A stretch of 27,446 nt of DNA from a virus. Below are positions 661 through 19,239 of the stretch, piece by piece (positions within the stretch are counted from its first letter, which is position 1; each line of letters starts with the position of its first letter). Location of the stretch: IMG/VR virus record IMGVR_UViG_3300046007_008928, positions 1 through 27,446 of that record, one strand, 5' to 3'. The position numbers and the translations under genes were made by a program. The notes beneath the pieces were generated by a model. That model was given only the letters and a program-made list of their open reading frames with translations. It was not told where the DNA came from and searched no databases.

Positions 661-1478
661 TTATTTTCTACCTTATAATAAAATGTAAGTGAATTTTTTA
701 ATTTAATGTCCATGAAACCATCGTGATTCCATACACCAGTTTTTAGTTTTTGTAAGATCATGTTTGCAAAAAATTCATTGAATTCTGGACCTAAATGCCC
801 GCACAAGTTTCCTGTTTCAGGGCTATTAAAATTTTCTAAAGGTAAATTTAGAAGTTCTAATTGTCTAAGCCAAAAAGAATGCATATAATGCATGTCAGCA
901 ATAATGCCCTGTTTTTGTTCTCTTTCCTTGGTTATTAATGCTCCTGAAAATGATGGAAAGAAAATTGTATTTTTATGTAATCTCTCCATGTTATCTAACA
1001 TTAAATCTGTAGCAACTTTGTGATATTCTTCGTCTACCGATCTAAACCAACCTCGAAGATGTATAAGTTTATTTTTGTCAACTGGAGTAAGTTTGTCGCC
1101 GTACATTTTTATCAATGCATCAATATGGCCTTCACCTGTGACCACATGATTAAATTTTACACTGGTTAAGTTTACAAATTTGCTGTATCTTGTAGCACCT
1201 GTTACAAGCACAATGTTAAGATCATTGTCCTTATATGTTTCTAAAAATTTTGTATATGTGTAAAAGAAAGAACTACCCGCCAAAGAGTACAATGTAACTG
1301 TATTTTTTTCTCCGTATTGCAAATCATACAATGGTTTATCTTTTTTAAGAAATGATAACCATGATTTTTTATTAGGATTAGACATTTTTTCTAATCCATC
1401 AGCAACTAATTCAAACCATTTTACAGCCTCTTTACTATTTGATGATGCGTAGCTGTCTCCGTATATTCCTATTTTCAT
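657..1478 (-). CDS. SGNH-hydrolase-like protein between nrdA and nrdB
   Basis: This 273-residue protein begins MKIGIYGDSY, and G7-D8-S9 is the block I nucleophile motif of SGNH/GDSL hydrolases. Near the C-terminus CGHLGPEFNEFFANMI (from about residue 226) places His228 where these proteins carry the catalytic His, followed by the usual amphipathic helix. The classical Asp three residues before that His is Leu here, as I recall from other phage members with a C-H pair at this site. No signal peptide or membrane segment is seen, so it probably acts in the cytoplasm. The substrate is unknown; O-acyl groups on sugars would fit the glycosyltransferases upstream, but that is inference. It overlaps nrdA and nrdB by 4 bases (ATGA) on each side, so it is translationally coupled into the nrd operon. 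Confidence 0.6.
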   Translation of the reverse strand: MKIGIYGDSYASSNSKEAVKWFELVADGLEKMSNPNKKSWLSFLKKDKPLYDLQYGEKNTVTLYSLAGSSFFYTYTKFLETYKDNDLNIVLVTGATRYSKFVNLTSVKFNHVVTGEGHIDALIKMYGDKLTPVDKNKLIHLRGWFRSVDEEYHKVATDLMLDNMERLHKNTIFFPSFSGALITKEREQKQGIIADMHYMHSFWLRQLELLNLPLENFNSPETGNLCGHLGPEFNEFFANMILQKLKTGVWNHDGFMDIKLKNSLTFYYKVENK

Positions 1479-3793
1479 AACTTACAAGCCTCACAATCCT
1501 CTTCGTCAAATGCTTCAACGGTTTGTGATTGTACAGGCTCTTCCTGCTCTACAGCTTTTGCACCTTGTTTATTAATCAAACTATAATAAAAAGTTTTTAT
1601 ACCCCATAAATGACTTTGCATGAGATTTTTTGCAATCAGCGTAGTAGGTACCTTACGATTTGCGAAATGAGCAGGGTTATAAAAAGTATTGGTAGAAATA
1701 CTTTGATCAACATATGCTGCAAGTACAGCAGCAGTCTTGAGATATCCCACACAGTCTTTTTGCTCCCACATTAATTGATATTTGTTTTTAAGTTTATGAT
1801 ATTCTGGCACTACTTGTGTAAATGATCCCGCCTTAGATTCTTTAACCGAAATCAGAGACATAGGCATTTCAATGCCGTTTGTAGAATTTATAACAACTGA
1901 ACTACTTTCTACAGGTGCGATAGCCATCAATGTTGCATTGCGTACTCCATGTTTCTTCATTTCATTTCGCAAACTTTCCCAATCTAATTCAGGAGTAAAA
2001 TTAGTTAATTCGTTTACTCCACTGGCTCTTAACTCCCATGGAAAGATTCCTTGACCATATCGTGTCTTATCGCTGTCTACACATTTCCCGCGTTCTTTAG
2101 CAAGTTCAACTGTGGCTTCTGTAAGATAGAAGGCTTGATGTTCCATCCAACTCTTTACTTCTTGTAGTGCATCCTTCTCGCCATACTTTAGTCCACGCTT
2201 TGCATGCCAGTATGCTAGATTGGTGACTCCAATGCCCAATGGTTGTATTTCATCGTTGCTTAGTTTACTTTGAATGCTTAGAAAATCCTGATAGTCGAGG
2301 ATATTGCATAGGCTGCGCTGCAAAATGCGGCAAGCCCTACGCATATCTTCAGGGTTGCGAAACGACCCCCAGTTAATACTGCCGAGTGTACATAATGCAA
2401 TGCGACCGGAATCGTCATCAAGGCGCTTAAAAGGACGAGTAGGTAATAGTATTTCACAGCATAGATTTGATTGATAGATTGTATGATATTCAGGATCGAA
2501 CGGACCTTGATTCATGACGTTATCAATGAATACGAGATAGATACGACCTGTATCTGTTCTCTCTTTTAATATTCCACTTTTAAAAACTTCTTCTGCGCTA
2601 ATCGTTTTCTTACGCAAACCTGATTGTTTCTCATATTTTACATACAATTCTTCGAATCGTTTTGTGTTTTTGTAGAATGCTTCGTAGAGGTCGGGAACTT
2701 CGTTAGGGTCGAAAAAGGTAATGTTTTCTTTGTTTCTAAATCGTCTCCAAAAGAAACTCGACAACACAACCCCATAATCCATATGACGGACTCTTGTTTC
2801 TTCGGTTCCTTGATTGTTTTTAAGTACAATAAGATCATCAAACTGATGATGCCATATAGGATAAAAAACTGTAGCACTAGCATTGCGAATACCTCCCTGA
2901 CTGCAACTGCGTAAGTCGCCAAACCATTTTTTCAAAAAAGGTATCATACCCGTGTGCATAATCTCACCACCACGAATAGGCGAGCCCAGTGGTCTTAGAC
3001 GACCAATCTCTAAACCAATGCCAGCTCGTTTGCTAGCATACTTAGCCATCATTTCACCACTAGCAAAAATACTATCGAGATCATCGTCACTACGTATAAG
3101 AACACATGAACTAAATTGTTTGGTTGGGGTACCAAGGCCAGCAAGAACAGGAGTAGCGAGAGTGAATAAACCATCCGACGCAGCATTGTAGTATTCCTTT
3201 ATATAACGCATTCTAGCAGATAACGGTTCTTCTTTGTGAAAAACAGTAGCAGCCGCAATCATGTATCTTACTTGAGGAGTTTCATATGTTTGCTTTGTTG
3301 AACGATTTTTTACAAGATACTTCTCAATTAATTGCTCAATAGCAGCATAACTATATTGTTCGTCTTTGGCATGGTCGATGAACGTGTCCATCTTATCCCA
3401 TTCTTCTTCGGTGTACCAATTCAATAAGTCATTGGTATACAGTCCTGTTTCTACATTTCTTTTTACTATTTCGTATAGACGCGGAGGATTATAATCTCCG
3501 TAAACATCTTTACGCAACATGCTTAGTCTTTGTTTTCCAGCAACATACTGGTAATTAGTATGCCCGATGTCCGGATTTGATTCTACATCAATCAAATCAA
3601 CAACTGCTCTTAGTGTAATTTCATCTATTTCTCTTGTTGTAATTCCATCATAGAAATGTGGTTGAGCCTTAATTTCTATCATGGATTGACTTACATCAGC
3701 TATTCCCGTACAAATTTTTGCTATCTGCGCTTGCCATTTTTCTAGTGTGAGTATTTCTTGCTGTCCTGATCGTTTTGTAACGTATATTTTCAT
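1475..3793 (-). CDS. nrdA: Ribonucleoside-diphosphate reductase class Ia, alpha subunit
   Basis: The catalytic subunit reduces NDPs to dNDPs for phage DNA synthesis. The 772 residues match E. coli NrdA in length (761). An ATP-cone allosteric domain fills about residues 1-90. Active-site residues are visible: redox Cys230 (FSSCVLI), Asn443, thiyl Cys445 and Glu447 in QSNLCCEILLPT, the partner redox Cys468 (ALCTLGS), the radical-relay pair Tyr736-Tyr737 (TFYYSL), and the C-terminal shuttle cysteines C767-E-A-C770-K-L. It therefore looks fully functional, with no intein or intron. Its ATG overlaps the stop of the unknown gene upstream (ATGA, 3790-3793) and its stop overlaps the SGNH gene start. 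The extra Cys446 next to the thiyl cysteine is a minor variation. Confidence 0.98.
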   Translation of the reverse strand: MKIYVTKRSGQQEILTLEKWQAQIAKICTGIADVSQSMIEIKAQPHFYDGITTREIDEITLRAVVDLIDVESNPDIGHTNYQYVAGKQRLSMLRKDVYGDYNPPRLYEIVKRNVETGLYTNDLLNWYTEEEWDKMDTFIDHAKDEQYSYAAIEQLIEKYLVKNRSTKQTYETPQVRYMIAAATVFHKEEPLSARMRYIKEYYNAASDGLFTLATPVLAGLGTPTKQFSSCVLIRSDDDLDSIFASGEMMAKYASKRAGIGLEIGRLRPLGSPIRGGEIMHTGMIPFLKKWFGDLRSCSQGGIRNASATVFYPIWHHQFDDLIVLKNNQGTEETRVRHMDYGVVLSSFFWRRFRNKENITFFDPNEVPDLYEAFYKNTKRFEELYVKYEKQSGLRKKTISAEEVFKSGILKERTDTGRIYLVFIDNVMNQGPFDPEYHTIYQSNLCCEILLPTRPFKRLDDDSGRIALCTLGSINWGSFRNPEDMRRACRILQRSLCNILDYQDFLSIQSKLSNDEIQPLGIGVTNLAYWHAKRGLKYGEKDALQEVKSWMEHQAFYLTEATVELAKERGKCVDSDKTRYGQGIFPWELRASGVNELTNFTPELDWESLRNEMKKHGVRNATLMAIAPVESSSVVINSTNGIEMPMSLISVKESKAGSFTQVVPEYHKLKNKYQLMWEQKDCVGYLKTAAVLAAYVDQSISTNTFYNPAHFANRKVPTTLIAKNLMQSHLWGIKTFYYSLINKQGAKAVEQEEPVQSQTVEAFDEEDCEACKL

Positions 3794-4236
3794 TTTAAAC
3801 CTATTTTAGTGATGATTGGCAAAGTGTCAATACGCTTGACTATTTTAAAATCTGTTAGACAGTTATTTACTACAGTATTAGGCCAATAATTAAGTATATA
3901 TTTTGCGTTATCTACCAATACCAAACACACATCCTCGTTATTATAATCTTTTGCTTCGACAAATTCAAGTGTTTCTATGCCCAACAAATATAATGTATAA
4001 AACATACCCAATCCACGGGCAATATTACAATAGTGGTTTTCAAAAATAAGCTCCCATGGATTAGGCCAATCTTTTACAAAATCACTGTGTAAGTAATGAT
4101 TTACTAACGGAGCCTGTTGCCACCAATTGTCTATCTCTATACATTTTGTTGGTAAATCTACATTTTCCAAAGACAGTCGTAAACGATACCAATTTTTAAA
4201 AATAATATCATGATTGTTTTGAAAATGATTAACCAT
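3790..4236 (-). CDS. Unrecognised 148-residue protein in the glycosyltransferase/nrd string
   Basis: I do not recognise this protein. It is short, soluble and rich in aromatic residues. Visible landmarks are W39-W40, the segment DWPNPWELI (56-64), NHYCNIARGLGM (67-78) with Cys70, and NYWPN (116-120). The Cys followed by an A-R-x-L-G helix and a later Tyr/Trp-rich strand faintly resembles a transglutaminase/papain-like core, but no convincing His-Asp pair is visible, so I do not assign it. It starts with a TAATG one-base overlap with the GT9 fragment upstream and ends in an ATGA overlap with nrdA, so it belongs to the same translationally coupled string. It is a real gene by its overlaps and coding quality; its function is unknown. 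Confidence 0.8.
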   Translation of the reverse strand: MVNHFQNNHDIIFKNWYRLRLSLENVDLPTKCIEIDNWWQQAPLVNHYLHSDFVKDWPNPWELIFENHYCNIARGLGMFYTLYLLGIETLEFVEAKDYNNEDVCLVLVDNAKYILNYWPNTVVNNCLTDFKIVKRIDTLPIITKIGLK

Positions 4237-4688
4237 TATTTTGTTTCTACACCTAAACTTTTAAGTGCATTAACTACAATATCCGGACTTACAAAAGCAT
4301 CTTCGTTGTACTCAGCTTGTTCCCAAATCCAAAATTGTTTGTCTCTTAAATATTTTCTATCTTTTAAGAGATTGATATTTTCGGGATGACCGAAAATATT
4401 AGGGTCGCTTTGACCAAACACAGCAACTCCTTGTTTACCTATATCCCAGCAAAAATGTTGAAAAAAGCTATCTACACTTACCCAAGTTTTACAGTCCTTA
4501 ACAAGTAAAGCTAATTCATATAAAGGTAAATTTTTTCTAAAATCATCTACAAGCTGATGTTCCCCGTTAACACCTACTTGTATGACATGTTCATTTATTC
4601 TTGATAACACCTCTTCCCAATAAGGGTAATTCTTAGGATGTTTTTCACCATTTCTCATAAATTTTGCATAAGGAGATATTATTATCAT
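4236..4688 (-). CDS. GT9 (heptosyltransferase-like) C-terminal half as a separate small protein
   Basis: The 150 residues resemble the C-terminal nucleotide-sugar-binding half of GT9 (ADP-heptose:LPS heptosyltransferase type) enzymes only. It begins with the linker strand MIIISPYAKF, then KHPKNYPYWEEVL (16-28), a QVGVNGE strand-turn (37-43), and the diagnostic DSFFQHFCWDIGKQGVAVFG (73-92) followed by SDP, equivalent to the family's D-[ST]-x-x-x-H and V-x-x-[FY]-G-x-[ST]-D-P signature. A normal GT9 enzyme is about 320-350 residues; the N-terminal half is missing here. A candidate N-terminal half is found at the C-terminus of the GT2 protein two genes upstream (5173-6150), so the two may assemble into one enzyme. 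The ATG overlaps the methyltransferase stop (ATGA). Confidence 0.7.
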   Translation of the reverse strand: MIIISPYAKFMRNGEKHPKNYPYWEEVLSRINEHVIQVGVNGEHQLVDDFRKNLPLYELALLVKDCKTWVSVDSFFQHFCWDIGKQGVAVFGQSDPNIFGHPENINLLKDRKYLRDKQFWIWEQAEYNEDAFVSPDIVVNALKSLGVETK

Positions 4689-5176
4689 TTTGTTGCTTCT
4701 ACATTTAAAAATAAATTTTTTGTATCAGGCTTAATATATCCTGAGTTAGGTTCTTTTCTTTCAATGTTTTTAAATCCTGCCCATGACATAGATTTTTTTA
4801 ATTCAAATTCAGTATATAAAAATTTATGTACTAGTCCAGGATTTAACCATGCAGTAGAAAAAAAATGTCCATATAAATTCCATCTACCATCTTGATCGGT
4901 GTTTATAAATGCCTTACATGATTCTAAAAAATCAGGTGTTTCAATTCGTATGATTCCATTTGGTTTAAGTACACGACACCATTCTTTTAAAACATCATGA
5001 GCTTGTAAATAATCAAAATGTTCTATCACATGGTATGCCCGTATTTCATCTATACTGTTATCGTCATACTTTAATTTAGAAATATCATATCTCTCATCTG
5101 CCTTTTCAGCATATAAGTCAATATTTATGAAACCGTCGATGTAATCGCCGCCGCTACCTAAGTTAAGTTTTATCAT
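4685..5176 (-). CDS. Small SAM-dependent methyltransferase (class I, type 11-like)
   Basis: This 163-residue protein has a Rossmann methyltransferase core. Motif I is IKLNLGSGGDYIDGF (2-16), the acidic ribose-binding residue is Asp20-Asp21-region (NIDLY), the post-motif is RAYHVIEHF (46-54), and motif III follows in VLKPNGIIRIETPDF. It lacks a large C-terminal domain. Proteins of this size in sugar-modification clusters usually methylate small molecules or glycans; with glycosyltransferases on both sides a sugar O-methyltransferase is the likeliest role, but the substrate cannot be read from the sequence. It overlaps its neighbours by ATGA at both ends. It lies between the two apparent halves of a GT9 enzyme, which is unusual. 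Confidence 0.85.
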   Translation of the reverse strand: MIKLNLGSGGDYIDGFINIDLYAEKADERYDISKLKYDDNSIDEIRAYHVIEHFDYLQAHDVLKEWCRVLKPNGIIRIETPDFLESCKAFINTDQDGRWNLYGHFFSTAWLNPGLVHKFLYTEFELKKSMSWAGFKNIERKEPNSGYIKPDTKNLFLNVEATK

Positions 5177-6150
5177 GATACATTATAGAATTTTTTATAT
5201 GCATCTTCTAGTGAGCCAGTCCAATTCCAACGATCCATATGTGCATATACATTGTATTCATGTATATCACCCAATAATGCTTTGGCTTCTGCTATACTAC
5301 GACCAGGAATAATTTCTGGGTAGCAACTAAAGACTACAGGATTCTTAATAAGAGGTAATATTCGTTTAAAAACAATATGATCACCCATGCCGCAATCAAG
5401 TATTACAATTGTTTGATCTTTAAAATTCATGATGTTTTGAAAAATTCTCTCATCATGTTCAAACATTTCGCTTACACCATCTCGTATGCCACCTTGTTTA
5501 TTCTTTAAATGCCATGTAATTGCATGCGGAACAACATAATTTTTATATCCGCGCTTTTTAAGTTCATATGTAAATAATGTTTCTTCTCTATGTGCAATTC
5601 TAGATAATGCAAGATTGTAGTCTGCTACACCTGCCCTATATAAAAAAGAACAATGCAGATGGTCTACTTCTTTTTTCTCTGTAATCATTCCCCATTGCAA
5701 ATTTGCTTCGTTATAAATATTTTCTATTTTTCCTGTTGCATTTACAACGCCCATACTAGGAGGAGTCAACACTGATCCACCGACTGCACCTACATTTTCT
5801 TCAATAGTAGCATGTGTATACAACTGTTCTAAAACATTACTGTCAGCTACTGTGTCATCATCCAGTCGCCAAACCCATTTATACCCCATATGATTTGCTC
5901 TTTGATGATTGTGATGTTGACCTTTCTTTTCAGCATAAAGCCATTCCCAACCTACTCCACATTCGCTGAGAATTTGAAAGAGATAGGTATAATGCTGTTG
6001 GTCTCTAACATCTCTAGGAGGATCATTATCATCTTGTATGATAAGATAATCTGGTTTCATAGTCTGTGTTATAACAGAAGATATTGCTAAAGGCAATGTT
6101 GTATCGTATCTACCTCTAGTAGAAATTGAGCAAAGTATTTCTTTTTTCAT
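5173..6150 (-). CDS. GT2 glycosyltransferase fused to a GT9 N-terminal-like domain
   Basis: Residues 1-about 240 form a GT-A family 2 glycosyltransferase: ILCSISTRGRYDTTLP opens the nucleotide-binding fold, IIQDDND (37-43) follows, the metal-binding motif is RLDDDT with Asp97-99, and TWHL (213-216) supplies a late His. Residues 244-325 are different: DQTIVILDCGMGDHIVFKRI looks like the first strand-loop-helix of GT9 heptosyltransferases (I-x-x-[GD]-x-G-D), followed by further alternating strands, then the protein stops. The missing GT9 C-terminal half is encoded separately at 4236-4688. I chose the ATG at 6150 because it gives an ATGA overlap with the upstream stop and has GGA nearby; a TTG at 6159 would add three residues. 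Confidence 0.82.
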   Translation of the reverse strand: MKKEILCSISTRGRYDTTLPLAISSVITQTMKPDYLIIQDDNDPPRDVRDQQHYTYLFQILSECGVGWEWLYAEKKGQHHNHQRANHMGYKWVWRLDDDTVADSNVLEQLYTHATIEENVGAVGGSVLTPPSMGVVNATGKIENIYNEANLQWGMITEKKEVDHLHCSFLYRAGVADYNLALSRIAHREETLFTYELKKRGYKNYVVPHAITWHLKNKQGGIRDGVSEMFEHDERIFQNIMNFKDQTIVILDCGMGDHIVFKRILPLIKNPVVFSCYPEIIPGRSIAEAKALLGDIHEYNVYAHMDRWNWTGSLEDAYKKFYNVS

Positions 6151-8138
6151 TTTTTCCAATGTTGATTACTAAATGGTGCCTCACGCCAATTTATTCTATT
6201 GCCGTGTTGATCATAATCCCAATAATAAATTTGTTTTGTATCTATATTATTGAATCCAAATTCTTTCAATTTCTTTTCAATAATTTCACGACCTTTATGT
6301 TTAGGGTGTAAATCTGTATGTACTTCCATCATAATTTCATTAATGCGTACCATATCCATTGGATCGGCATTTAAAATTATGTCGTATTCTGCTCCTTCGC
6401 AGTCTAATTTTAATAGTATGTCATGTCCTGCTATTTGATTCATGATATCTCTAAATGTCATGGTTTCTACAACTTCAAAATTATCAGAAACATTATACAT
6501 GCTATTAGCACCTGCATTATCGTTGATACTAACTTTAATAAATTGGTTGCCTTTATCACTAACTAGTTTCTTGTGTGTAGTAATTGTTGATAAACCTGTT
6601 CGTGAAATATTTTTAAGAAAAGTATTATATGACATACTGATTGGTTCTACTGCTACAACTTGTTTGGCACCTAAAGTTGCTGCATATAATGCAAACGCGC
6701 CAATATTTGCACCAATATCTATAACAATTCTATCACGCATATTTTGTTTATTTAAATGATATTGATTACTTTCGACAACTTCACGATGCATATTAGCATC
6801 CTGTTCTTTTAAGAAATCCAATGATACACTATCGTTCATATCTTTATCCCATACACATAACATAAGATTAATATTTTCTTTGTCTCCGCGATTATGCGGT
6901 TCATCTCTTAAACTTCCATCAGGCGCTATAAATTTAAATTTGAAACCAGGAAAGTATGATTCATCTAAGTTATGTATTTTATGATGCGGTCCCCAAAGAC
7001 CAGGTGTTTCTAACATAGGTACAGTAATCATCAATCGTTTACAATGTTTTTTAAGTTTTTCAACGATTTCTAATCCATTGTCTAAATGTTCTATAACTTC
7101 AAATGCAATGATTGTATCATATTGACCTAATTCATAGGTGTTAATATCACCATGTACAAATGTTACACCTTTGTCACGCCATTTTTGTTCTCTTGCTACA
7201 GGAATAATTCTTTTATCATAATCAAGTCCTGTATAATCTATATTCTCGGGTAAGAACTGAACTCCATATCCGCTAGAGCATCCCAATTCAAAAACTTTTG
7301 TTCCTAAGATATTTTGTGCTGCCCATGAATATCTTGTTATTTCTCTAGGTGCAATTTCATCACCTTTAAAAAATACTGCTCTTTCCCAGTAATTACTAAG
7401 TCTCCATTGATACCATCGTGGATTATATTTTCTAGCGAGTGTAAGAGAGTTTGTTAAGAAAATATCTTCCCATTCAGGAACAAGCGATTTATCATGAACA
7501 GTACCTTCGCCTTTATGATATATAGGGAAATCACCGCAATACATACCGGCTGCTGGATTCCATTTCTTTTCAACGCATTCTAAAACTTCAAACCCTGCTC
7601 TTTCACATTCAATACTAAATTCTGTATCTTCCCCTCCACCAGCACCATAATCAAGACTTAACAACCCTATCTTATCAAATACTCGTCTATGAATCATTAC
7701 ACAGAAAAAGATTGCAAAATCATGTCCAGCCGGTTCACTTTCACTTTTAATTAAACAGCTTATACCTGCTTTTTCATTGTTTGTGAAAACTGAAGCTAAT
7801 TGATCTAACCAACGATTTTTATGTTGTTCTAATAAAACTGTATCATTGTTTAATAATACAATAAGTGGACATGTAGCTACCTCAATACCTGCATTACATG
7901 CCCTTGAATATCCCAAAGGAGCATCGTTCCAAACTATTTTTAAGTTATCACTCAGTCCTAACAAATCAAATTTTTCACGCAATGAATCACAGTATTGTCT
8001 AGTGCCATCCACACAGCCATTTGCTGATATAATTAATTCAACATCTGTAATGTAACTAAACTTAAAAATTGACTCAATGCATGGTTTTAATAAATCATCG
8101 CAATGATTGTATGTCGGAATTACAACACTATATTTCAT
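6147..8138 (-). CDS. Three-domain GT2 glycosyltransferase - methyltransferase - FkbM methyltransferase
   Basis: Numbering is from the ATG at 8138. Residues 1-about 250 are a GT2 glycosyltransferase (KYSVVIPTYN, LIISANGC, LLNNDTVLL with Asp99, GGGEDTEF around 168-175). Residues about 278-430 are a class I methyltransferase (VFELGCSSGYG, motif I at 282-292; FEVIEHL at 346-352). Residues about 468-640 are an FkbM-type methyltransferase (VIDIGANIGAFAL, 472-484; KLDCEGAEYD, 577-586). FkbM enzymes O-methylate sugars and polyketides, so one polypeptide may add and cap a sugar. I prefer 8138 to the ATG at 8144: the AAAGG ribosome site abuts 8144 directly but lies 6 bases from 8138, and the paralogue upstream also begins MKYS. 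The GT2 part is clearly paralogous to the next gene upstream. Confidence 0.9.
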   Translation of the reverse strand: MKYSVVIPTYNHCDDLLKPCIESIFKFSYITDVELIISANGCVDGTRQYCDSLREKFDLLGLSDNLKIVWNDAPLGYSRACNAGIEVATCPLIVLLNNDTVLLEQHKNRWLDQLASVFTNNEKAGISCLIKSESEPAGHDFAIFFCVMIHRRVFDKIGLLSLDYGAGGGEDTEFSIECERAGFEVLECVEKKWNPAAGMYCGDFPIYHKGEGTVHDKSLVPEWEDIFLTNSLTLARKYNPRWYQWRLSNYWERAVFFKGDEIAPREITRYSWAAQNILGTKVFELGCSSGYGVQFLPENIDYTGLDYDKRIIPVAREQKWRDKGVTFVHGDINTYELGQYDTIIAFEVIEHLDNGLEIVEKLKKHCKRLMITVPMLETPGLWGPHHKIHNLDESYFPGFKFKFIAPDGSLRDEPHNRGDKENINLMLCVWDKDMNDSVSLDFLKEQDANMHREVVESNQYHLNKQNMRDRIVIDIGANIGAFALYAATLGAKQVVAVEPISMSYNTFLKNISRTGLSTITTHKKLVSDKGNQFIKVSINDNAGANSMYNVSDNFEVVETMTFRDIMNQIAGHDILLKLDCEGAEYDIILNADPMDMVRINEIMMEVHTDLHPKHKGREIIEKKLKEFGFNNIDTKQIYYWDYDQHGNRINWREAPFSNQHWKK

Positions 8139-8147
8139 TATCATCCT

Positions 8148-8903
8148 TTAAACTGTATGTTTGTACTTTTCGTACCATTCCATGTTATTATATTTCTGCG
8201 CTAATCTTAATTCATTGCGCCTAAATGTTCTTTCCCAATCACTTACTAATTCGGGATTATGCACAGTACCTTCGCCTTGATGCCATAACGGAAAAGCACC
8301 CACATGAAGTTTAATGTCTTGATTCCAAACTAAAGGAATAGGTTGTACAACTTCGTATCCTAATATTTGTGCGGCTGCACAAAAATCTATATCTTCATTT
8401 CCGCCGGTAATATATTCTTCGTCTAATAATCCAACTTCATTAATTACTTTTCTATCAATCATTACACAAAAGAAAATGCCAAAATACATTTTTGTAATTT
8501 CACTATATTTTTTTAGTGAACATGTTATTCCGCATTTAGGATTACTTTCAAATCCACTATGCAACATACGCAACCAATCACCTTTTACTTGAGGTAATAA
8601 AATTGCATCGTTGTTTAACATTACTAATTTATCACAAGTTGCTTGCATTATACCAATATTAGTGGCTCTAGCATAACCCAATGCTTGCTCATTCCAAATT
8701 ATTTTCAAATGTTTTTCTAAACCCAAATATGCAAAAGTTTGCTGTAATTTAGTTAAAAACTCTGAAGTATTATCTGTACATCCGTTGGCAGATATAATTA
8801 ATTCTATATCTTGTAAATAGGAATATTTAAAAACCGCATCCAAGCAGGGTTTTAAAAATTTATCGCAATTATTATATGTAGGTATGACAATGCTATATTT
8901 CAT
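8148..8903 (-). CDS. GT2 family glycosyltransferase
   Basis: This 251-residue single-domain GT2 enzyme begins MKYSIVIPTYNNCDKFLKPC, has LIISANGCTDN (about 34-44), the donor/metal motif LNNDAIL around residue 97, and GGNEDIDF in the acceptor region. It matches the N-terminal domain of the three-domain protein downstream almost motif for motif, including the C-terminal H-x-GEGTVH-x-x-x-LV segment and A-x-KYN, so the two arose by tandem duplication. The donor sugar is unknown. It is the first gene after the giant fibre, separated by 47 bases that hold a hairpin covering its AGAGGG ribosome site. Its stop (8148) is followed within 10 bases by the next start. Confidence 0.93.
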   Translation of the reverse strand: MKYSIVIPTYNNCDKFLKPCLDAVFKYSYLQDIELIISANGCTDNTSEFLTKLQQTFAYLGLEKHLKIIWNEQALGYARATNIGIMQATCDKLVMLNNDAILLPQVKGDWLRMLHSGFESNPKCGITCSLKKYSEITKMYFGIFFCVMIDRKVINEVGLLDEEYITGGNEDIDFCAAAQILGYEVVQPIPLVWNQDIKLHVGAFPLWHQGEGTVHNPELVSDWERTFRRNELRLAQKYNNMEWYEKYKHTV

Positions 8904-8905
8904 GA

Positions 8906-8945
8906 AATGCCCTCTTACTACTTATGATTGTAGTAATTGGGCATT
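8906..8945 (-). promoter_or_regulatory. Hairpin that covers the ribosome binding site of the first glycosyltransferase
   Basis: The intergenic bases can fold into AATGCCC/GGGCATT (8906-8912 with 8939-8945), a 2x2 internal loop, TTACTAC/GTAGTAA (8915-8921 with 8930-8936) and an 8-base loop. In the minus-strand transcript the 3' arm contains the AGAGGG Shine-Dalgarno sequence and ends two bases before the ATG at 8903. No U-run follows, so it is not a standard intrinsic terminator. A translational brake or mRNA-processing hairpin that lowers enzyme output relative to the fibre is the most natural reading; this is inferred from pairing only. Confidence 0.6.
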
Positions 8946-8950
8946 AAATT

Positions 8951-11900
8951 TTAAGCATAAGTTGCGTTCAATGTATACCAGTTTGTAGCATTCATAGCTA
9001 TAAATTCTACACATCCGCCGACAGCTAATGTAAATCCTGCATTCGCAGCCAATGCATTAATTTGATCACTTGTATTTGGATACACTAGCAATGCGTTTGC
9101 ACCACCGTTTCTTACTACAACACGAAGACCTTGTACGCAATCTGGTAATCTAACGCCTGTACTTGCAGCTACTGTAGTGACATTATTAATAGCTGTAGTA
9201 AGAGCCGTTGCTGTTCCTTGATTAGAGCCTGCTGCCGATATAGTATCTGTTGTTCCAAAATCGAAATATATAGCACTGAATGCACCTGTACTTGCGTTAT
9301 AAACAAGAGGAGTTGTTGCAACATCAACTTTAGGTGTTTGACTTGAGCCTGCCGCGCCGACCATAACTGGGTACAATGCTACTGTACTGTTATCATCAGT
9401 AGCATTGATTGCTGTACTTGGGCCTGCTTGACCAGAGAATCCTGATGTTCCAGTAAATCCAGATACACCTGTAAATCCACTGACACCCGACCAACCACTT
9501 ACGCCACTCCATCCTGATCTACCACTTATACCGGTAGTACCTGACCAACCTGATACACCAGTAGTGCCACTAAATCCTGATGTTCCTGAAATACCAGTAG
9601 TACCTGACCAACCTGATACACCAGTAGTTCCTGATGTACCTGATACACCAGTAGTGCCTGACCATCCTGATACACCAGTAGTGCCTGACCATCCTGATAC
9701 ACCAGTAGTGCCACTAGCACCTGACCAGCCGCTTACGCCTGTTGTACCTGAAGTGCCACTAAATCCACTTACGCCTGTAGTGCCACTAGCACCTGACCAT
9801 CCTGAGGTTCCGCTTATACCAGTAGTGCCTGACCATCCTGACGTTCCTGAAACACCTGTAGTTCCTGACCAACCTGATGTACCGCTATCGCCTGTTCTAT
9901 TAAAATTAATAACAAGTGCATCATTATTTGCTGGGATAGTACCAGATACATAAGTTACTGTTAGTGTGTAATAGGTTGTATTATCTGTAGCAGCCGTAAC
10001 ATTGAATATTGCCTGAACTGTGCTTGCGTTAGAGTTATTCGTAACAACAAATTGCCCTTTATTAACACTAGAACTTGATGCAAAAGATGCTAACCAAGCA
10101 GAGAAATCAACGCCACTTACATTAAGATCGTTTACATAAATTGCAGTTACTAAACCTATTGTACCACTATTAAATCTTACGCTACCATTGCTACCAATAC
10201 CAGCTGTTGTAGTGGAATCAAAATAATATCTTACACCGGCTTTATTACCTTGAGGTCCTGAATATCCAGAAATACCTGTTGTGCCACTTGCGCCTGACCA
10301 ACCACTTACGCCTGTTGTGCCACTAGCACCTGACCAACCACTTACACCAGTTGTGCCTGATGTTCCTGATATACCAGTTGTACCCGACCAACCACTTACG
10401 CCTGTTGTGCCACTAGCACCTGACCAACCACTTACACCAGTAGTACCTGAGGCGCCACTCCAGCCACTTACGCCTGTTGTTCCTGATGCACCACTCCAAC
10501 CCGATGTACCTGATATACCAGTTGTACCTGACCAACCACTGACACCAGTAGTACCTGATGCACCTGACCAACCACTTACGCCAGTAGTACCTGATGCACC
10601 TGACCAACCTGATGTTCCACTTACACCAGTAGTACCTGATGCACCTGACCAACCACTTACACCAGTAGTACCTGATGCACCTGACCAACCACTTACACCA
10701 GTAGTGCCTGACCAACCTGATACGCCGGTTGTTCCACTGAATCCACTTATACCTGTTGTACCACTCACGCCTGTAGTACCTGATGCACCTGACCAGCCTG
10801 ATGTTCCTGATACACCAGTAGTACCTGACCAGCCTGATGTTCCACTTATACCAGTAGTACCTGATGCACCTGACCAACCACTTACACCAGTAGTACCTGA
10901 TGCACCTGACCAACCACTTACGCCAGTAGTACCTGACCAGCCTGATGTTCCTGATACACCAGTAGTACCTGACCAGCCTGATGTTCCACTTATACCAGTA
11001 GTACCTGATGCACCTGACCAACCACTTACACCAGTAGTACCTGATGCACCTGACCAACCACTTACGCCAGTAGTACCTGACCAACCACTTACGCCAGTAG
11101 TTCCTGAAGCACCACTATATCCACTAATACCTGTGGTGCCTGAATATCCTGAAACACCAGTTGTACCAGAAGTGCCAGAAGTACCAGATTCACCACTCCA
11201 ACCACTAACACCTGTAAATCCACTAGTTCCTGATATACCTGTTGTACCTGATATACCGCTTGTACCCGAAGTGCCACTGTATCCACTGACGCCAGTAAAT
11301 CCAGACACACCCGACCAACCTGATGTTCCACTCTCTCCTGATGTACCACTTATGCCTGATTCACCTGACCAACCACTTACACCGCTTACACCTGTGTATC
11401 CGCTTATACCTGATACACCGCTAATACCTGATATACCTGTATATCCACTAATACCCGATGTACCTGAAGTACCGCTAGCACCACTAATACCTGAGAATCC
11501 TGAAACACCTTGTACAAGAGCAAGAATAATTTCTAAGTTATTTGCAAATCCTGAAGTACCGGTGCCACCTGATGTTACTAACGATACAGGAATTGTCCAA
11601 TAACCTGTGTTGTTAGTTGGAGTACCTGTAATAGTAAATGTTTGGAAGTTAGCACTTTGTGCTTTATCCTGTAATGTAATATTTTCAGTTTGTTGCAATA
11701 ATGCTAGGAAGATGTCAATATCAATACCATCGTTTGTAGTCATGTTTACATACAAGTTAGTAGCACTTGTTTGTGTACCAGTATTGTATTGAATATGTCC
11801 ACTAGCTGGCGGAGGTGTTTGACTGTTTGCATCAATTGTGTATTCAAATATAGTGCTTGAGACACCTGGCGCGCCACTTGCACCACTTGCACCACTTGCA

Positions 11901-14900
11901 CCAGAATATCCACTTACACCTGATGTACCTGATGTACCTGATGTACCGCTAAATCCGCTAACACCTGTAGTACCAGAAGCACCTGATTCACCACTCCAAC
12001 CAGATGTGCCACTGTATCCGCTAACACCTGTATGTCCTGACTCTCCGCTCCATCCTGAAGTTCCTGATGTACCGCTTGTTCCTGATATTCCTGATGTACC
12101 GCTTTCACCTGATGTACCACTTGTACCGCTAAAGCCACTAACACCAGAAATACCTGATTCACCACTCCAACCACTAACACCTGTAGTTCCTGATGTTCCT
12201 GATGTTCCGCTTGTACCGGATGTTCCGCTAAATCCTGATGTTCCGCTTATACCTGTAGTACCGGATTCACCACTCCAACCACTAACACCTGTAGTTCCCG
12301 AAGTTCCTGATATACCTGTTGTACCTGACCAGCCACTTACGCCTGTGTAACCACTAGTACCTGATGTACCTGATTCTCCTGATGTACCTGATTCTCCTGA
12401 TGTACCAGAAGTTCCTGATATACCTGTTGTGCCTGACCAACCACTTACGCCTGATTCACCACTAAATCCGCTAACACCTGTAGTACCGGATTCACCACTC
12501 CAACCACTAACACCAGTAGTTCCCGATGTTCCTGATTCTCCACTAGTACCTGATTGACCTGATGTTCCACTAAATCCACTAACACCAGACTCTCCTGATG
12601 TACCTGATTCTCCGCTCCAGCCACTAACACCAGATTCTCCTGATGTACCTGAAATGCCAGATGTGCCACTAAAACCACTTATACCTGTAGTACCTGAAGC
12701 ACCACTAAAACCACTTATACCTGTAGTACCTGAAGCGCCACTGTATCCTGATTGACCAGGAACAGCTGCCGTTAAGGTTATATTAGATGTTATATCACCT
12801 ACTTTGACTAATGTAACTTTAGCGTGCCACATGCCTGCAGCTCCGGCAGATGTATATACTGATGTTCCATCAATAATCCATTGCGAAGCATTACCAGATA
12901 AAATTACTTGATATGTACTTGTTGCGCTATATGTGCCGATTGGTGATACGCTTAGTGAGGCATTGTCATATGCGTATACATCTCCTGTTGTATCAAAGTA
13001 GAATGCATATGTAGGAGCTGTAAAGCCAGCTGCTCCTAAACCGATCAATTGTCCAAATGTTGCAGCTAGATTTACTTTAAATGTAGTTGCAGCTCCGGGA
13101 TAAGCCTGATCAGTGTATGAGGTAGTTGCTGAATTATCTGCGCCAATTTTTTCTACACTATCACCCTCTGAGGTCATATTTGGTGCAGCATTTTGGAAAG
13201 TAAGCGTTGATGCTGTTGCACCACTAGTACCGCTTGCACCTGAATAACCTGATGTGCCACTGAATCCTGAAACACCGGTAAATCCGCTTACGCCTGTGAA
13301 TCCTGATGTTCCGCTTGTACCGGATGTTCCACTTTCACCTGATGTGCCAGAAGTTCCTGATTCACCTGATGTACCACTAAATCCTGATGTGCCGGATGTG
13401 CCGGATGCTCCTGATTCTCCACTCCATCCTGATACTCCGGTAAATCCTGAAGTACCTGATACACCAGATGTACCGCTTGTTCCACTTGTACCTGATTCTC
13501 CACTAAATCCTGAAGTACCTGAAACTCCTGATTCACCACTCCAACCAGATGTTCCACTTTCACCTGAATGTCCTGAAGTGCCTGATTCTCCTGACCAACC
13601 ACTTACACCTGATTCACCTGAGAAACCACTTACACCTGATTCACCTGAGAAACCACTTATACCAGTGTAACCTGAAGTTCCACTTAAACCTGAATCACCT
13701 TGAGGACCAACTGCTCCATCTAAGTTAATTGTCCAGCTGCTGTATGTTCCTGATCCGTTAATTTCTATAACATTAACAACCATAACACCTGTACCAGGAT
13801 TATAGCTTGTAATAGGACCGTTCATATCATTGCTATTATCGTAAGCAATAACAACGTCTTGATTTATTGTATAGGCAAGTCCTGTAGCAACAGATAATGT
13901 TTGTGAACCTAAACCAATAGTTAATAGTGAATTGCTAGTTGTAGCATAACGATCACCAGTTTGACCACTTGCCCCTGATATACCACTTATACCGCTTGTA
14001 CCGCTAGTTCCACTGAATCCACTTACACCAGTAGTACCTGATTCTCCTGACCAACCACTTACGCCAGTAGTACCAGAAGTACCAGAAGTACCAGATTCAC
14101 CACTCCAACCTGACACACCTGTAAATCCTGATGTACCTGACACACCAGATGTTCCACTTAAACCAGAAGTTCCTGATTCTCCTGACCATCCGCTTACACC
14201 AGTAGTACCTGATTCACCTGACCAACCACTTACGCCAGTAGCACCAGAAGTACCACTTATACCTGAAGTGCCACTAAATCCACTAACACCAGTAGTGCCT
14301 GAAATACCTGATTCACCTGACCAACCACTTATGCCTGATTCTCCGCTAAATCCTGATACACCTGATACACCTGACCAACCACTTACACCTGATTCTCCTG
14401 ACCAACCACTTATGCCTGATTCACCACTTGTACCTGATTCACCTGACCAACCACTTATACCTGTAGTACCTGATTCGCCGCTAAATCCTGATACACCTGA
14501 TTCACCTGACCAGCCACTTATGCCTGATTCTCCTGATTGTCCCGATTCACCACTCCATCCTGATGTTCCACTAACACCTGATTCACCACTCCAACCGCTT
14601 ACACCGGTTTCGCCACTGAAACCACTTATGCCACTTGTACCTGATTGACCTGATTCTCCACTAAATCCACTTTCACCTGATGTGCCAGAAGTTCCTGATT
14701 CGCCGCTCCAGCCTGAAGTGCCACTTACACCTGATGTACCTGATTCTCCTGATGTACCTGACTCACCTGACCAACCACTTACACCTGATTCACCACTAAA
14801 TCCGCTTATACCTGAAGTACCTGATTCTCCTGATGTACCACTTGTACCACTTGTTCCACTTGTACCCGATTCACCGGACCAGCCTGATGTTCCACTATAA

Positions 14901-17900
14901 CCTGATGTTCCTGATTGTCCTGATACACCTGTCCATCCTGAGGTGCCTGAAGCACCACTATAACCTGATGTACCGGATTCACCACTAAATCCTGAAACGC
15001 CAGATTCCCCTGAGAACCCACTTATACCGGACTCACCTGAATATCCGCTTACGCCTGTAAATCCACTTATGCCGGAACCGCTAAATCCTGAAACTCCACT
15101 AAAGCCTGATGGACCTTGTATAGGTCCAACATTAGTCCAGTTTCCTAATCCATCACTAACTGCACCGTCACCTGCATTGTATCCGCCACCTGCATTTTGA
15201 ATCAGATATAAATCGCCTGCTGCTGCACCGCCTGGTAAATATGTATAATCATATACACTTCCAGATAATTGAATTGATTTACCAGAGTAACCTGATAGAC
15301 CAGATGTGCCACTATAACCACTGATACCAGATACGCCTGAATAACCACTGATACCTGAACCACTGAAACCACTTAATCCAGATGTACCAGATGTACCACT
15401 CAAGCCTGAGGTACCTGACTCACCTGAGAATCCACTTACTCCAGTAAATCCACTTACTCCAGACTCTCCAGAAGTACCACTGAAACCTGATTCACCTGAT
15501 GTTCCACTGAAACCTGATTCACCTGATGTTCCGCTATGTCCTGATAAGCCACTTGTTCCAGAAGCTCCACTAAAGCCTGATGTTCCTGATACACCAGAAG
15601 TACCGCTTACGCCTGTAAATCCACTTATACCAGAAGTACCACTGAATCCACTTGTACCACTAACACCAGATTCACCAGAAGTTCCTGACTCTCCACTAAA
15701 GCCTGAAGTACCAGATTGACCTGAATCACCTGACCAACCTGAAGTACCAGATTCACCAGAAGTTCCTGATACCCCTGAAGTACCACTTATGCCACTAAAT
15801 CCTGAAACTCCACTAAATCCCGAAGTGCCAGATAGACCAGATTCTCCTGACCAACCTGAAGTACCGCTTAATCCACTTGTACCTGATTGACCGGATTCGC
15901 CGCTCCAACCACTTAATCCACTAAAGCCTGAAGTGCCACTTATACCTGATGTGCCTGATTCTCCCGACTCTCCACTATAACCTGAAGTACCTGATTGTCC
16001 ACTAATACCAGTGGCGCCACTGAAGCCTGATGTCCCCGATTCACCAGATGTTCCACTAAAACCTGATTCTCCGGATATGCCGCTTATTCCTGATTCTCCG
16101 CTATAACCACTTATACCAGAGGGTCCTGAGTATCCAGAGAAACCACTTACACCTGATGCTCCTGAAACACCTGAATGACCACTAACACCTTGAACTAAAG
16201 CTAAAATGAGTTCAAGACCATTTGCAAAGCCGGAAGTGCCTGTTCCACCTGAGGCTAATAAAGTTACTGGAATAGTCCAGTAACCTGTATTATTTGTAGG
16301 TGTGCCGTTTATCTCCCAACGCTGATAATTGGCGCTTTGAGCCTTATCCTGTAATGTAATAACTTCAGTATCTTGTAATAGTGCTAGGAAAATATCAATA
16401 TCAATACCATCGTTAGTGGTCATATTGACATATAGGTTTGTTGCGCTTGTTTGAACAGAGTTATCGTATTGAATGTAACCACTAGCAGGTGGTGGGGTTT
16501 GACTATTAGCGTCAGCAGTATACTCAAATATTGTACTGCTTATGCCAGGAGTACCACTTGTACCAGATGTACCACTAGCTCCGCTGAATCCACTTACACC
16601 AGTTGTACCTGATTCACCTGAAAAACCACTAATACCTGAACCTGAGAAGCCTGAAATACCTGAGGAACCTGATTCACCTGAATGCCCAGATACCCCGCTT
16701 TCACCAGACCATCCACTGACACCAGTAAATCCTGATGTGCCACTAATACCAGACGCCCCTGATTCTCCTGAATGTCCCGATGTACCACTAGTACCTGATT
16801 GACCAGATTCTCCACTCCATCCAGAGGTGCCGCTTTCTCCAGAATGTCCTGATGAACCTGATTCGCCTGACCATCCACTTACACCTGTAAATCCAGATGT
16901 TCCACTTACACCAGATGTGCCTGATAGACCTGAAGTACCAGATTCACCGCTATATCCTGAAGTACCTGACAAACCACTAATACCAGACGCCCCTGATTCT
17001 CCTGAATGTCCCGATGTGCCACTTACACCTGATGCACCACTGAATCCACTTACACCAGTAAATCCTGATGTGCCACTTATACCAGACGCACCTGACTCTC
17101 CACTTACACCTGTTGTGCCTGATTCACCACTAAAACCACTTGTACCAGATTGACCACTTTCCCCGGATGCCCCACTGACACCACTTTCCCCGGATGCCCC
17201 ACTGACACCACTAAATCCACTTAATCCAGATTGTCCAGAAGTTCCACTAAATCCACTTACACCAGTAATTCCAGAATCACCTGATAATCCTGAATATCCG
17301 CTTATACCAGTCGTACCTGAGAATCCTGATTCTCCTGATTCTCCTGAGAATCCACTTACACCTGATCCACTAAATCCACTTACACCTGATTCACCTGATA
17401 ATCCAGAATCTCCAGAGAATCCAGACGGTCCACTGAATCCACTTACACCTGACAAACCTGACGTTCCGGATAAACCTGAATGTCCTGATATACCACTTAT
17501 ACCAGATGTGCCTGAAAAACCACTTATACCTGATCCACTAAAGCCTGAAAAACCACTTACACCAGAAGGTCCTTGTAATGGACCGATATTCGTCCAAGTG
17601 TTATCTCCATTACTTACTGCACCATCTCCTGCATTATAACCTCCACCTGCATTTTCAACAATATACACAGTGCCTGAGGGGATTCCGTTAGGCAAGAAAG
17701 TATAATCAAAAACAGAACCACCTATTGTAATTCCTGCACCTGAAAAACCGCTAACACCACTAGCACCAGACACTCCACTTGGTCCAGAGAAACCTGATAC
17801 TCCACTTGGTCCCGAGAATCCAGACACTCCACTTGGTCCAGAGAAACCTGATACTCCACTTGGTCCAGAGAAACCTGATACTCCACTTGGTCCCGAGAAT

Positions 17901-19150
17901 CCAGACACTCCACTTGGTCCTGAGAATCCACTTGGTCCTGAGAAACCTGATACTCCACTTGGTCCTGAGAAACCTGATACTCCACTTGGTCCTGAGAAAC
18001 CAGATATACCTGACGGGCCTAACGATCCAGATGCTCCTGAATATCCACTGATACCTGAGCCACTAAAACCTGATCGTCCCGAGACACCACTTAAACCCTG
18101 TTGACCTGATGCACCAGATGTACCACTGTAGCCGCTTATACCTGAACCACTAAAACCTGATTGACCTGACGCTCCGCTTATACCAGTTGTGCCTGACCAG
18201 CCGCTTACGCCACTAGTCCCACTAGTCCCACTAGTCCCACTGGCACCGCTAAAACCTGATCTGCCACTAAAACCCGATGTACCGCTAGCACCAGATGTAC
18301 CTACTTGACCACTTGCTCCGGACCATCCAGAAGGTCCTGAATAACCACTTATACCAGTTGTACCACTAAATCCACTTATACCTGATCCACTATATCCTGA
18401 AATACCTGATACGCCACTTAAGCCTAGTTGACCTGATGCACCTGACCAACCTGATGTTCCACTCGCACCACTGTGACCTGAAACACCACTAAAACCTGAT
18501 CGTCCGCTAATACCGCTTAAACCGGTATGTCCTGAGAAACCAGAAAAACCGCTCGGTCCTGAGAAACCAGAAGCGCCTTGTGCTCCGCTAAAACCTGATC
18601 TACCACTAAAACCTGATGTACCTTGTGCTCCTGAATAACCTGATGTGCCACTAGCACCACTATAACCTGATAGTCCTACTATACCAGTAATATTACTACC
18701 ATCACCATACAAATAGTTAGCATAAACAACATTAGCAGTTACATCAAAATTGCTGACTACATAATCAACAGTAAGTGTTCCTGTTGTTTTATCAAAGGTA
18801 AAATTAGCGTCTCCGCCAAATGCTCCCGAGTCATTAAATTGAACTTGAGTGTTTGCACCACCAGGTACTCCACTTCCTCCACCTCCGCCACCAGCAGCCC
18901 ATGTAAGGTTGCCTGTGCCATCAGTTTGCAAGAAGTAGCCATTAGTGCCACCCAGTATTTTTACATTACCGACTGGTCCTAAATTTGCAGTACCTGTATT
19001 TGTAACAGTATTTGCTGTAACGTTGTTTGCAACAACATTACCAGTCGGTACCATTACATTGGTAACTACATTACCATTTGCTGCGATTACAGTGTTGCCG
19101 GGTATGCCTACGCTAAAGCCACCCAGAGAGTTAAACGGTTGAGCTGCCAT
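8951..19150 (-). CDS. Giant collagen-like fibre/adhesin protein, 3399 residues
   Basis: The N-terminal 1-157 ([13 protein letters not shown] repeats, [18 protein letters not shown], then [16 protein letters not shown]) is typical of fibre proteins of T4-like plankton phages. Eight blocks of Gly-X-Ser/Thr triplets (such as GFSGTSGVS) follow, roughly at residues 157-472, 527-869, 989-1289, 1347-1730, 1821-1976, 2134-2429, 2551-2964 and 3087-3243. They are separated by seven globular modules: A (472-527), B (869-989), A' (1289-1347), C (1730-1821), D (1976-2134), B' (2429-2551) and E (2964-3087). A C-terminal domain (3243-3399) ends [10 protein letters not shown]. Such repeats form collagen triple helices, so a very long trimeric appendage is expected. 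Glu occurs mainly in the middle blocks; Pro is concentrated in the first. SGSGIS steps break the triplet phase. An AGGA site precedes the ATG and a late-promoter box lies 32 bases upstream. Attachment point and receptor are unknown. Confidence 0.92.
10276..11100 (-). repeat. 36-bp minisatellite encoding [12 protein letters not shown] units
   Basis: This stretch of the fibre gene is dominated by a 36-base unit encoding 12 residues of the type [12 protein letters not shown], with shorter 18- and 27-base variants mixed in. Two exact adjacent copies run from 10635 to 10706. Variation is mostly silent (aca/acg, gta/gtt) or V/I and T/W exchanges that keep the Gly-X-Ser/Thr phase, showing selection on the protein repeat. 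Confidence 0.85.
10787..11083 (-). repeat. Perfect 144-bp tandem duplication inside the fibre gene
   Basis: Bases 10787-10939 are identical to 10931-11083, a 153-base match at a spacing of 144 bases, which adds exactly 48 residues in frame. Neighbouring repeats differ at silent sites but these copies do not, so the duplication is recent on the time scale of the array. It was found by direct comparison of the two stretches. Confidence 0.9.
11508..11865 (-). repeat. Globular module B' of the fibre (second copy)
   Basis: It encodes a module of about 118 residues starting [20 protein letters not shown] and ending [10 protein letters not shown]. About 100 of 118 residues are identical to the module at 16187-16545, while many third codon positions differ. 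It is therefore an old duplication kept under protein-level selection, and it lies between collagen blocks 6 and 7. Confidence 0.85.
15110..15290 (-). repeat. Globular module A' of the fibre (second copy)
   Basis: It encodes about 58 residues with [36 protein letters not shown] and [12 protein letters not shown]. It is paralogous to module A at 17572-17735. The closing G-x-IQGP motif that leads into collagen triplets is common in phage collagen-like tail proteins. Confidence 0.8.
16187..16545 (-). repeat. Globular module B of the fibre (first copy)
   Basis: It encodes a module of about 118 residues starting [20 protein letters not shown] and ending [10 protein letters not shown], and is the partner of 11508-11865. 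Module E (9890-10258; [28 protein letters not shown]) has the same order of short motifs and looks like a more distant relative. Confidence 0.85.
17159..17212 (-). repeat. Perfect 27-bp tandem duplication with GC-rich codons
   Basis: Bases 17159-17185 and 17186-17212 are identical and encode SGVSGASGE twice. The unit uses GGGG/CCCC-containing codons that are rare in the surrounding AT-rich repeats, so the identity is not explained by background composition. This points to recent slippage. Confidence 0.85.
17572..17735 (-). repeat. Globular module A of the fibre (first copy)
   Basis: It encodes [20 protein letters not shown], then [16 protein letters not shown] and [12 protein letters not shown]. 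It is paralogous to module A' at 15110-15290 and separates collagen blocks 1 and 2. Confidence 0.8.
17771..18000 (-). repeat. 27-bp minisatellite encoding GPSGVSGFS units
   Basis: Nine copies of ccacttggtcc lie at regular spacing: eight at the 27-base period and one shortened to 18 bases. They encode repeats of G-P-S-G-V-S-G-F-S. This is the most proline-rich part of the whole fibre and the closest to canonical Gly-Pro-Y collagen. Alternating gagaaac/gagaatc ends show that higher-order two-unit blocks have been copied. Confidence 0.88.
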
Positions 19151-19182: not shown

Positions 19183-19189
19183 TATTTAT
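19183..19189 (-). promoter_or_regulatory. T4-late-promoter-like box upstream of the giant fibre gene
   Basis: The minus strand reads GATAAATATAG, close to the T4 late consensus TATAAATA recognised by the phage sigma-like factor gp55. The box is 32 bases before the fibre ATG at 19150, leaving room for a short leader with the AGGA ribosome site. In an AT-rich genome such a box is suggestive, not decisive. Confidence 0.55.
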
Positions 19190-19239
19190 CTCAACCAATT
19201 AAATAATATTTAAGAATAAAGTACTTTGGATATCTTTTT

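Follow-up and report, generated by a model that had tools for sequence, protein, structure and literature searches.

The DNA stretch analysed here (IMG/VR virus record IMGVR_UViG_3300046007_008928, positions 1 to 27,446; the whole 27,446-nt stretch is called the window) was assigned to a T4-like phage, as Pfam searches of its open reading frames (ORFs) matched Gp23, a gp21-type prohead protease, the T4 portal and both ribonucleotide reductase subunits. The minus strand encodes all long genes except one. A giant collagen-like fibre gene (8951-19150, minus strand) and six further genes, hereafter the cassette, sit between a fatty-acid desaturase gene and nrdA; an original prediction made from the sequence alone had read the glycosyltransferases and methyltransferases among them as a means by which the phage sugar-coats its own fibre with methylated glycans. 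Comparative evidence supports this reading, as the cassette tracks collagens with Ser or Thr at position Y of their Gly-X-Y triplets, and we consider it probable that the six-gene, phage-specific cassette O-glycosylates and methylates the Y-Ser/Thr residues of the phage's own collagen-like stalk.

The fibre protein (3399 aa), delimited by its ORF and its Gly-X-Y runs, comprises an N-terminal anchor (aa 1-155), 16 Gly-X-Ser/Thr runs and a C-terminal domain of 154 aa (aa 3246-3399). Short slips break up the stalk, as do larger non-collagenous inserts, of which two are duplicated. The ORF produced 51 matches to PF01391, nearly all above the cut-off, which places it among collagen-like proteins. 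When runs of at least five triplets were counted, 797 Gly-X-Y triplets made up 70% of the protein, with Ser at Y in 687 and Thr in 86 of the 797 (97% together). Overall Ser/Thr density, predicted to be about one per triplet, was found to be 1.24, with at least one such residue in 98% of triplets, while Pro (~1%) and Lys plus Arg (0.3%) are scarce in the repeat. Y-Ser is encoded by both TCN (413) and AGY (274) codons, two families with no single silent step between them, and the amino-acid entropy of position Y (0.68 bits) is below that of X (3.27); this combination of low entropy and two unlinked codon families indicates that Y-Ser is kept by selection and not by DNA repeat expansion. With Pro at ~1%, formation of a triple helix by the unmodified fibre is doubtful. 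The C-terminal domain had no match in a Pfam scan and has 28 relatives in viral contigs. Searches of annotated phages with the N-terminal domain or with pure Gly-X-Ser repeat returned zero matches, the repeat probably being masked as low complexity.

Directly behind the fibre and also on the minus strand, the cassette begins with GT2a (8148-8903, 251 aa), a GT2-family glycosyltransferase (PF00535, E = 2e-18), followed by TRI (6147-8144, 665 aa), a fusion of GT2, S-adenosylmethionine (SAM) methyltransferase and FkbM O-methyltransferase modules (PF00535, PF13489/PF08242 (Methyltransf_23/11) and PF05050) that was found at 80 loci in viral contigs. The third gene, GT2b-GT9N (5173-6150, 325 aa; PF13641), encodes a GT-A glycosyltransferase that carries an additional module of ~85 aa at its C-terminus. 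Its ORF was listed as 5173-6159 with a TTG start at 6159; the ATG at 6150 is probably the true start, because it overlaps the TRI stop codon as ATGA. The next two genes encode the SAM methyltransferase MT (4685-5176, 163 aa; PF08241, Methyltransf_11) and GT9C (4236-4688, 150 aa), the C-terminal, nucleotide-sugar half of a GT9-type glycosyltransferase, for which the PF01075 match (E = 1.6e-6) covers the C-terminal part only and a weak match to heptosyltransferase 1 was obtained. Every element of the same-strand order that had been predicted (GT2, GT2-MT-FkbM, GT2-GT9N, MT, GT9C) is present at the stated place, and the proposed near-continuous translational coupling is borne out by junctions of +3, -4, -4, -4, -1 and -4 nt, the last into nrdA and with the GT2b start taken at 6150. 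The label 'GT9N' did not hold up: the idea that the tail of GT2b is the N half of a split GT9 found no support from Pfam, PDB search or Foldseek. The modelled fold of GT2b-GT9N (pLDDT 88) is of GT-A type; its matches include both the wall-teichoic-acid transferase TarP and polypeptide GalNAc transferases, GalNAc-T2 among them, so that the fold leaves the acceptor unfixed.

A sixth member, U148 (3790-4236, minus strand, 148 aa), lies within the span originally predicted and had gone unnamed there. Its predicted structure (pLDDT 90.6; TM 0.72 to PDB 4fgo) belongs to the LapG / transglutaminase-like cysteine proteinase fold, and Cys70 is invariant in 24 aligned homologs. No invariant His follows Cys70 among these 24, none is conserved at the place of the LapG His, and a Cys-His-Asp triad was not found; the residues that stand in its place were assigned from their position in the fold and not by superposing structures. 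The missing His makes an active LapG-like protease doubtful; U148 may instead be a non-catalytic partner or perform other chemistry. The same gene order recurs at loci whose fibre C-terminus is at least 66% identical, wherever enough flanking DNA is covered, with MT missing in some. Shorter cassettes also occur, and GT2b-GT9N, GT9C and a methyltransferase form the constant core. No clear membrane segment was seen in the six proteins (a single hydropathy window was borderline), and Pfam identified no flippase or polyprenyl-linked enzyme in the cassette. Among the window ORFs there were no genes for nucleotide-sugar synthesis, including those for rhamnose or anthrose, and none for base modification.

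The 47-nt gap between the fibre and GT2a (8904-8950, minus strand) forms a hairpin (-19.4 kcal/mol, z = -6.0) whose 3' arm contains the GT2a ribosome-binding site. A hairpin alone had been predicted in this gap; the hairpin was confirmed, and the gap also holds a late-promoter-like octamer, CATAAGTA, in the loop/arm (8919-8926, minus strand). Across nine sequences, 8 of 19 pairs were altered on both sides, and 151 of 168 cells were paired compared with 59-86 after sliding. On the loop side, TCATANNTA is nearly invariant across 15 leaders, and the pattern NATAWDTA was present in 10/10 GT2a leaders versus 3% of random stretches, with exact NATAAATA in 0/10. The fibre gene has its own late-promoter-like octamer, GATAAATA (19183-19190, minus strand), 32 nt ahead of its start, and NATAAATA was found in 21 of 25 leaders of same-anchor fibres versus 1% of random 70-nt stretches. 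A role of the hairpin as terminator found no support, as it lacks a T-run and was not flagged by the terminator rule; a covarying, octamer-bearing form that hides the ribosome-binding site better fits translational control. In T4 gene e and I-TevI, a late promoter inside such a hairpin limits translation to late transcripts (PMC3014915, PMC2988022). The arrangement here is alike in that a conserved hairpin hides the ribosome site with the octamer between its arms, and differs in that it heads a glycosyltransferase cassette and in that the octamer is degenerate (CATAAGTA/CATATATA). Expression of the cassette would thus be of late type, a timing that fits modification of a virion protein.

Comparison with the phage's own lineage places the cassette with the stalk. 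In all 80 of 80 loci whose gp23 is 77-96% identical to that of the window, the cassette was absent within the flank covered. Many of these relatives carry, at the same place, a fibre with a homologous N-terminal anchor (36-58% identical) and no Gly-X-Y stalk, the order being gp23, often a desaturase, an HNH gene and the fibre. Gly-X-Y repeats were found in 0 of 13 complete homologous-anchor fibres of gp23 relatives with at least 1.5 kb of downstream sequence; the homologous-anchor fibres that do have a Gly-X-Ser stalk (window, L013, L054 and L096) are all accompanied by the cassette. On gp23-relative contigs of at least 44 kb, GT2b was present in 0/14 and a collagen in 1/14, and on contigs of at least ~40 kb collagens occurred in 12 of 15 that carry the cassette versus 1 of 14 gp23 relatives (p = 1e-4).

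The association extends across phages. Among 70 distinct ORFs lying immediately upstream of cassettes, 44 were fibres with an adjacent stalk of at least 15 Gly-X-Y triplets, and in 43 of these 44 the fraction of Ser/Thr at Y was at least 0.77. The C-termini of these fibres fall into at least eight unrelated types, one of which is the S74 chaperone (PF13884). As the C-terminus lies between stalk and cassette, its variation in at least eight ways implies that the pairing outlived replacement of the intervening DNA, which contiguity alone is insufficient to explain. Collagen-like phage ORFs were also chosen by two DNA-pattern scans blind to neighbouring genes and counted where at least 1.5 kb of downstream sequence was available. 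Cassette-family genes lay within 1.5 kb of 11 of 15 low-Pro Gly-X-Ser/Thr collagens and of 1 of 79 in other classes (Pro-rich, 0/5; Gly-Ser/Thr-Ser/Thr, 1/31; Y other than Ser/Thr, 0/41; other, 0/2). A scan of S74-tailed fibres gave a similar picture, with a cassette within 1.5 kb downstream in 19/20 fibres with a Y-Ser/Thr fraction of at least 0.7 and in 0/43 with Gln or other residues at Y; after similar rows were collapsed, this became 8/9 versus 0/18 (p = 4e-6). In the single exception (L396) a cassette is located ~9 kb downstream on the same contig (L030). The co-occurrence of collagen-like fibres with adjacent FkbM/GT2 genes on which the original prediction had staked its check was therefore found, and with a residue specificity beyond what it had proposed: the cassette accompanies collagens with Ser/Thr at Y and not those with Gln at Y or rich in Pro. 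At three loci (L061-L063) the cassette adjoins Pro/Thr-rich, GPT-type collagens, so that Thr at Y also goes with it.

Several observations weigh against this interpretation or limit the counts behind it. The S74 seeds came from cassette loci, 12 of the 19 cassette-positive S74 contigs were already known from the earlier scans (the seven new Y-Ser loci scored 7/7), and many loci are related, so effective samples are smaller than the raw counts. A tree of the S74 domain needs 2-3 label changes, which points to few independent events in that test; the independence of the association rests mainly on the unrelated C-termini of cassette-adjacent fibres. A 303-kb gp23 relative (G053, the contig of L433) encodes a 3010-aa, Gly-Ala-Thr-rich collagen-like ORF at ~244-253 kb and lacks the cassette, as do four further loci with Y-Ser/Thr collagens (L116, L134, L185 and L217). 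The Gly-Ser/Thr-Ser/Thr collagens, also rich in Ser/Thr at Y, lack it in 30 of 31 cases. Moreover, GT9 and FkbM enzymes are typical of lipopolysaccharide and exopolysaccharide pathways. Finally, the same glycosyltransferase genes in related phages without any Gly-X-Ser fibre had been named as grounds for abandoning the idea. Cassettes with no adjacent stalk do occur, and the outcome was mixed: four such contigs (L021, L030, L044 and L086) carry collagens elsewhere with Y-Ser/Thr fractions of 0.88-0.98, which on the 335-kb L021 contig lie 142-188 kb from the cassette, and a stalkless S74 fibre (L399) has a short collagen ORF adjoining its cassette, whereas no collagen was detected on cassette contigs L019 (200 kb), L071 (50 kb) and L083 (41 kb), which are linear and possibly fragments. 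The objection from these three contigs is weakened, not closed.

Two of the four loci with Y-Ser/Thr collagens and no cassette have other sugar-related genes downstream. At L217, the Gly-X-Ser collagen (2616-5688) stands directly before an unknown protein of 240 aa, a fusion of radical SAM and methyltransferase modules, and an NAD-dependent epimerase.

GT2b-GT9N, the most cassette-specific protein, was found in 1 of 50,697 annotated phage records and, at the sensitivity of the scan, in four metagenome-assembled genome (MAG) contigs among 84,980 prokaryote species genomes, and is thus nearly confined to viruses. On one of the MAG contigs (L509), a Gly-X-Ser ORF lies directly upstream. The only annotated phage with a GT2b gene is the cultured Methylophilaceae phage P19250A (KX815270.1), in which a minimal cassette of MT, GT2b-GT9N and GT9C begins 14 nt downstream of P19250A_0023 (KX815270.1:21390-24995), a 1201-aa Gly-X-Ser protein with 280 triplets and 224 Y-Ser. 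P19250A_0023 is annotated as a tail length tape-measure protein, yet is collagen-like, and by eye has interrupting modules in common with the window fibre. No second relative of P19250A was identified among annotated phages by its tail protein.

Following this reasoning, the fibre would be made late in infection from its own late promoter, and the cassette would be translated from transcripts begun at the late-promoter-like site inside the hairpin, which would free the GT2a ribosome site. The soluble GT2 enzymes (GT2a, TRI and GT2b) could then add the first sugar to Y-Ser/Thr and extend the glycan, GT9C, as a GT9-type enzyme, would add a further sugar, and FkbM and the other methyltransferases would modify the glycan or cap it, either ahead of fibre assembly or while it proceeds. 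Host nucleotide sugars are proposed as donors because no synthesis gene is present. Such a glycan would stabilise, stiffen and shield a Pro-free triple helix; protease resistance, stiffness or evasion, the benefits first proposed, are possible. In this scheme the chemistry, acceptor, sequence of steps and benefit are all inferred.

In the main rival reading, the enzymes act on host lipopolysaccharide or a different surface glycan, for superinfection exclusion or receptor change, and adjoin fibres only through a shared hypervariable host-recognition region. This is how glycosyltransferases near pelagimyophage tail fibres have been read (PMC7029224); the resemblance of GT9C to heptosyltransferase 1 and the frequency of FkbM in O-antigen pathways agree with it, as do five loci (L017 and L019-L022) where the cassette follows gp23, the capsid gene, directly or nearly directly with no fibre between. 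It leaves unexplained why the cassette tracks the Y residue and why it pairs with many unrelated receptor-binding C-termini, and it sits poorly with control that looks late and with proteins that lack clear membrane segments and are accompanied by neither flippase nor polyprenyl-linked enzyme. We regard it as unlikely. That stalk and cassette form one mobile block, hitchhiking without a functional tie, seems more improbable still: although both are missing beside gp23 in relatives, and an HNH endonuclease-like ORF adjoins them in the window phage and many relatives, stalk type and cassette stay paired while the C-terminal domain between them differs in at least eight unrelated ways, and they co-occur at separations of 9 to 188 kb. 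The slimmest chance is given to a cassette that glycosylates another virion protein or phage DNA, with the stalk as a correlated trait only. Phage glycosyltransferases do act on mycobacteriophage capsid and tail-tube proteins (work cited in PMC12619734) and on DNA in other phages, but the Y-residue specificity, the position of the cassette directly behind the fibre and the lack of base-modification genes in the window all speak against it.

Glycosylation of the phage's own stalk, as favoured here, may be one case of a wider pattern. Phage collagens with Gln at Y (L363, L374, L378, L385, L410 and others; contigs G028, G031, G034, G036 and G039) lack the cassette and are often accompanied by a GT2 ORF of another kind (~520 aa), located ~4 kb downstream in several cases; this is perhaps a second collagen-modifying system. 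We tentatively suggest that enzyme sets are matched to stalk chemistry, Ser/Thr-type collagens going with this O-glycosylation/methylation cassette and Gln-type collagens with another, such that several phage collagen-modifying systems would replace prolyl hydroxylation.

Elsewhere in the window, the desaturase gene (19577-20296, minus strand) lies between gp23 and the fibre and is variable among gp23 relatives, some having it and some not. The HNH endonuclease-like ORF (19240-19605, plus strand), between the desaturase and the fibre on the opposite strand, is kept at the same site in many of them. A 273-aa protein encoded between nrdA and nrdB (657-1478, minus strand) had no Pfam or PHROG match and shares only 34-37% identity with its counterparts in relatives. 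Rfam and tRNA scans of the window gave zero matches.

Fibre-linked phage glycosyltransferases have been interpreted in published work as agents of host O-chain modification or DNA protection (PMC7029224, PMC10202952), and a search of open-licence papers found none that connects a dedicated glycosylation cassette with collagen-like fibres of phages. If the proposed glycosylation is correct, such enzymes, usually read as host-surface or DNA modifiers, would gain a new and testable role, tailed phages would possess collagen-glycosylation machinery of their own, fitted to the stalk residue by residue, and the stability of a nearly Pro-free collagen would be accounted for. The minimal cassette of sequenced P19250A, from the named laboratory host strain IMCC19250, makes the idea directly testable.

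Among known systems, the host recognition cluster of pelagimyophages is also T4-like and unites glycosyltransferases and tail fibres in one island, with collagen repeats noted (PMC7029224); its enzymes are read there as O-chain modifiers, and a link to the Y residue is not described. Serotype conversion of the Gtr type does not apply, as neither a GtrA flippase nor membrane-bound Gtr enzymes were found and GT2a matches a GtrB-like PHROG only weakly. In mycobacteriophages, phage-encoded glycosyltransferases sugar-coat virion proteins, as is proposed here for the fibre; in the work of Freeman et al. 2023, as cited in PMC12619734, the acceptors are the C-termini of capsid and tail-tube subunits, unlike the collagen stalk proposed here. 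The exosporium protein BclA of the Bacillus cereus group is a glycosylated prokaryotic collagen-like protein with a Thr-rich Y position, as is C. difficile BclA1 (PMC8968730). The window fibre shares with BclA a Ser/Thr-rich Y and linkage of glycosyltransferase genes to the collagen gene, and GPT-type Pro/Thr-rich repeats occur in one cassette-bearing stalk group (L061-L063). However, BclA, a spore protein of cellular origin, has abundant Pro, whereas the fibre is a nearly Pro-free phage protein with Ser at Y, served by a different, phage-restricted enzyme set (GT2-MT-FkbM, GT2b-GT9N, GT9C) without sugar-synthesis genes. Mimivirus encodes collagens together with lysyl hydroxylase / glucosyltransferases that modify hydroxylysine (PMC9546862, PMC8968730), so that in both cases a virus codes for a collagen and for enzymes that glycosylate it, putatively so here; in contrast to mimivirus, Lys plus Arg are scarce in the repeat and no hydroxylase, lysyl or other, was found in the window. 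With no rhamnose or anthrose genes, no lysyl hydroxylase and different enzymes, the cassette belongs to neither type, while resembling BclA glycosylation and, in its logic, the collagen glycosylation of mimivirus.
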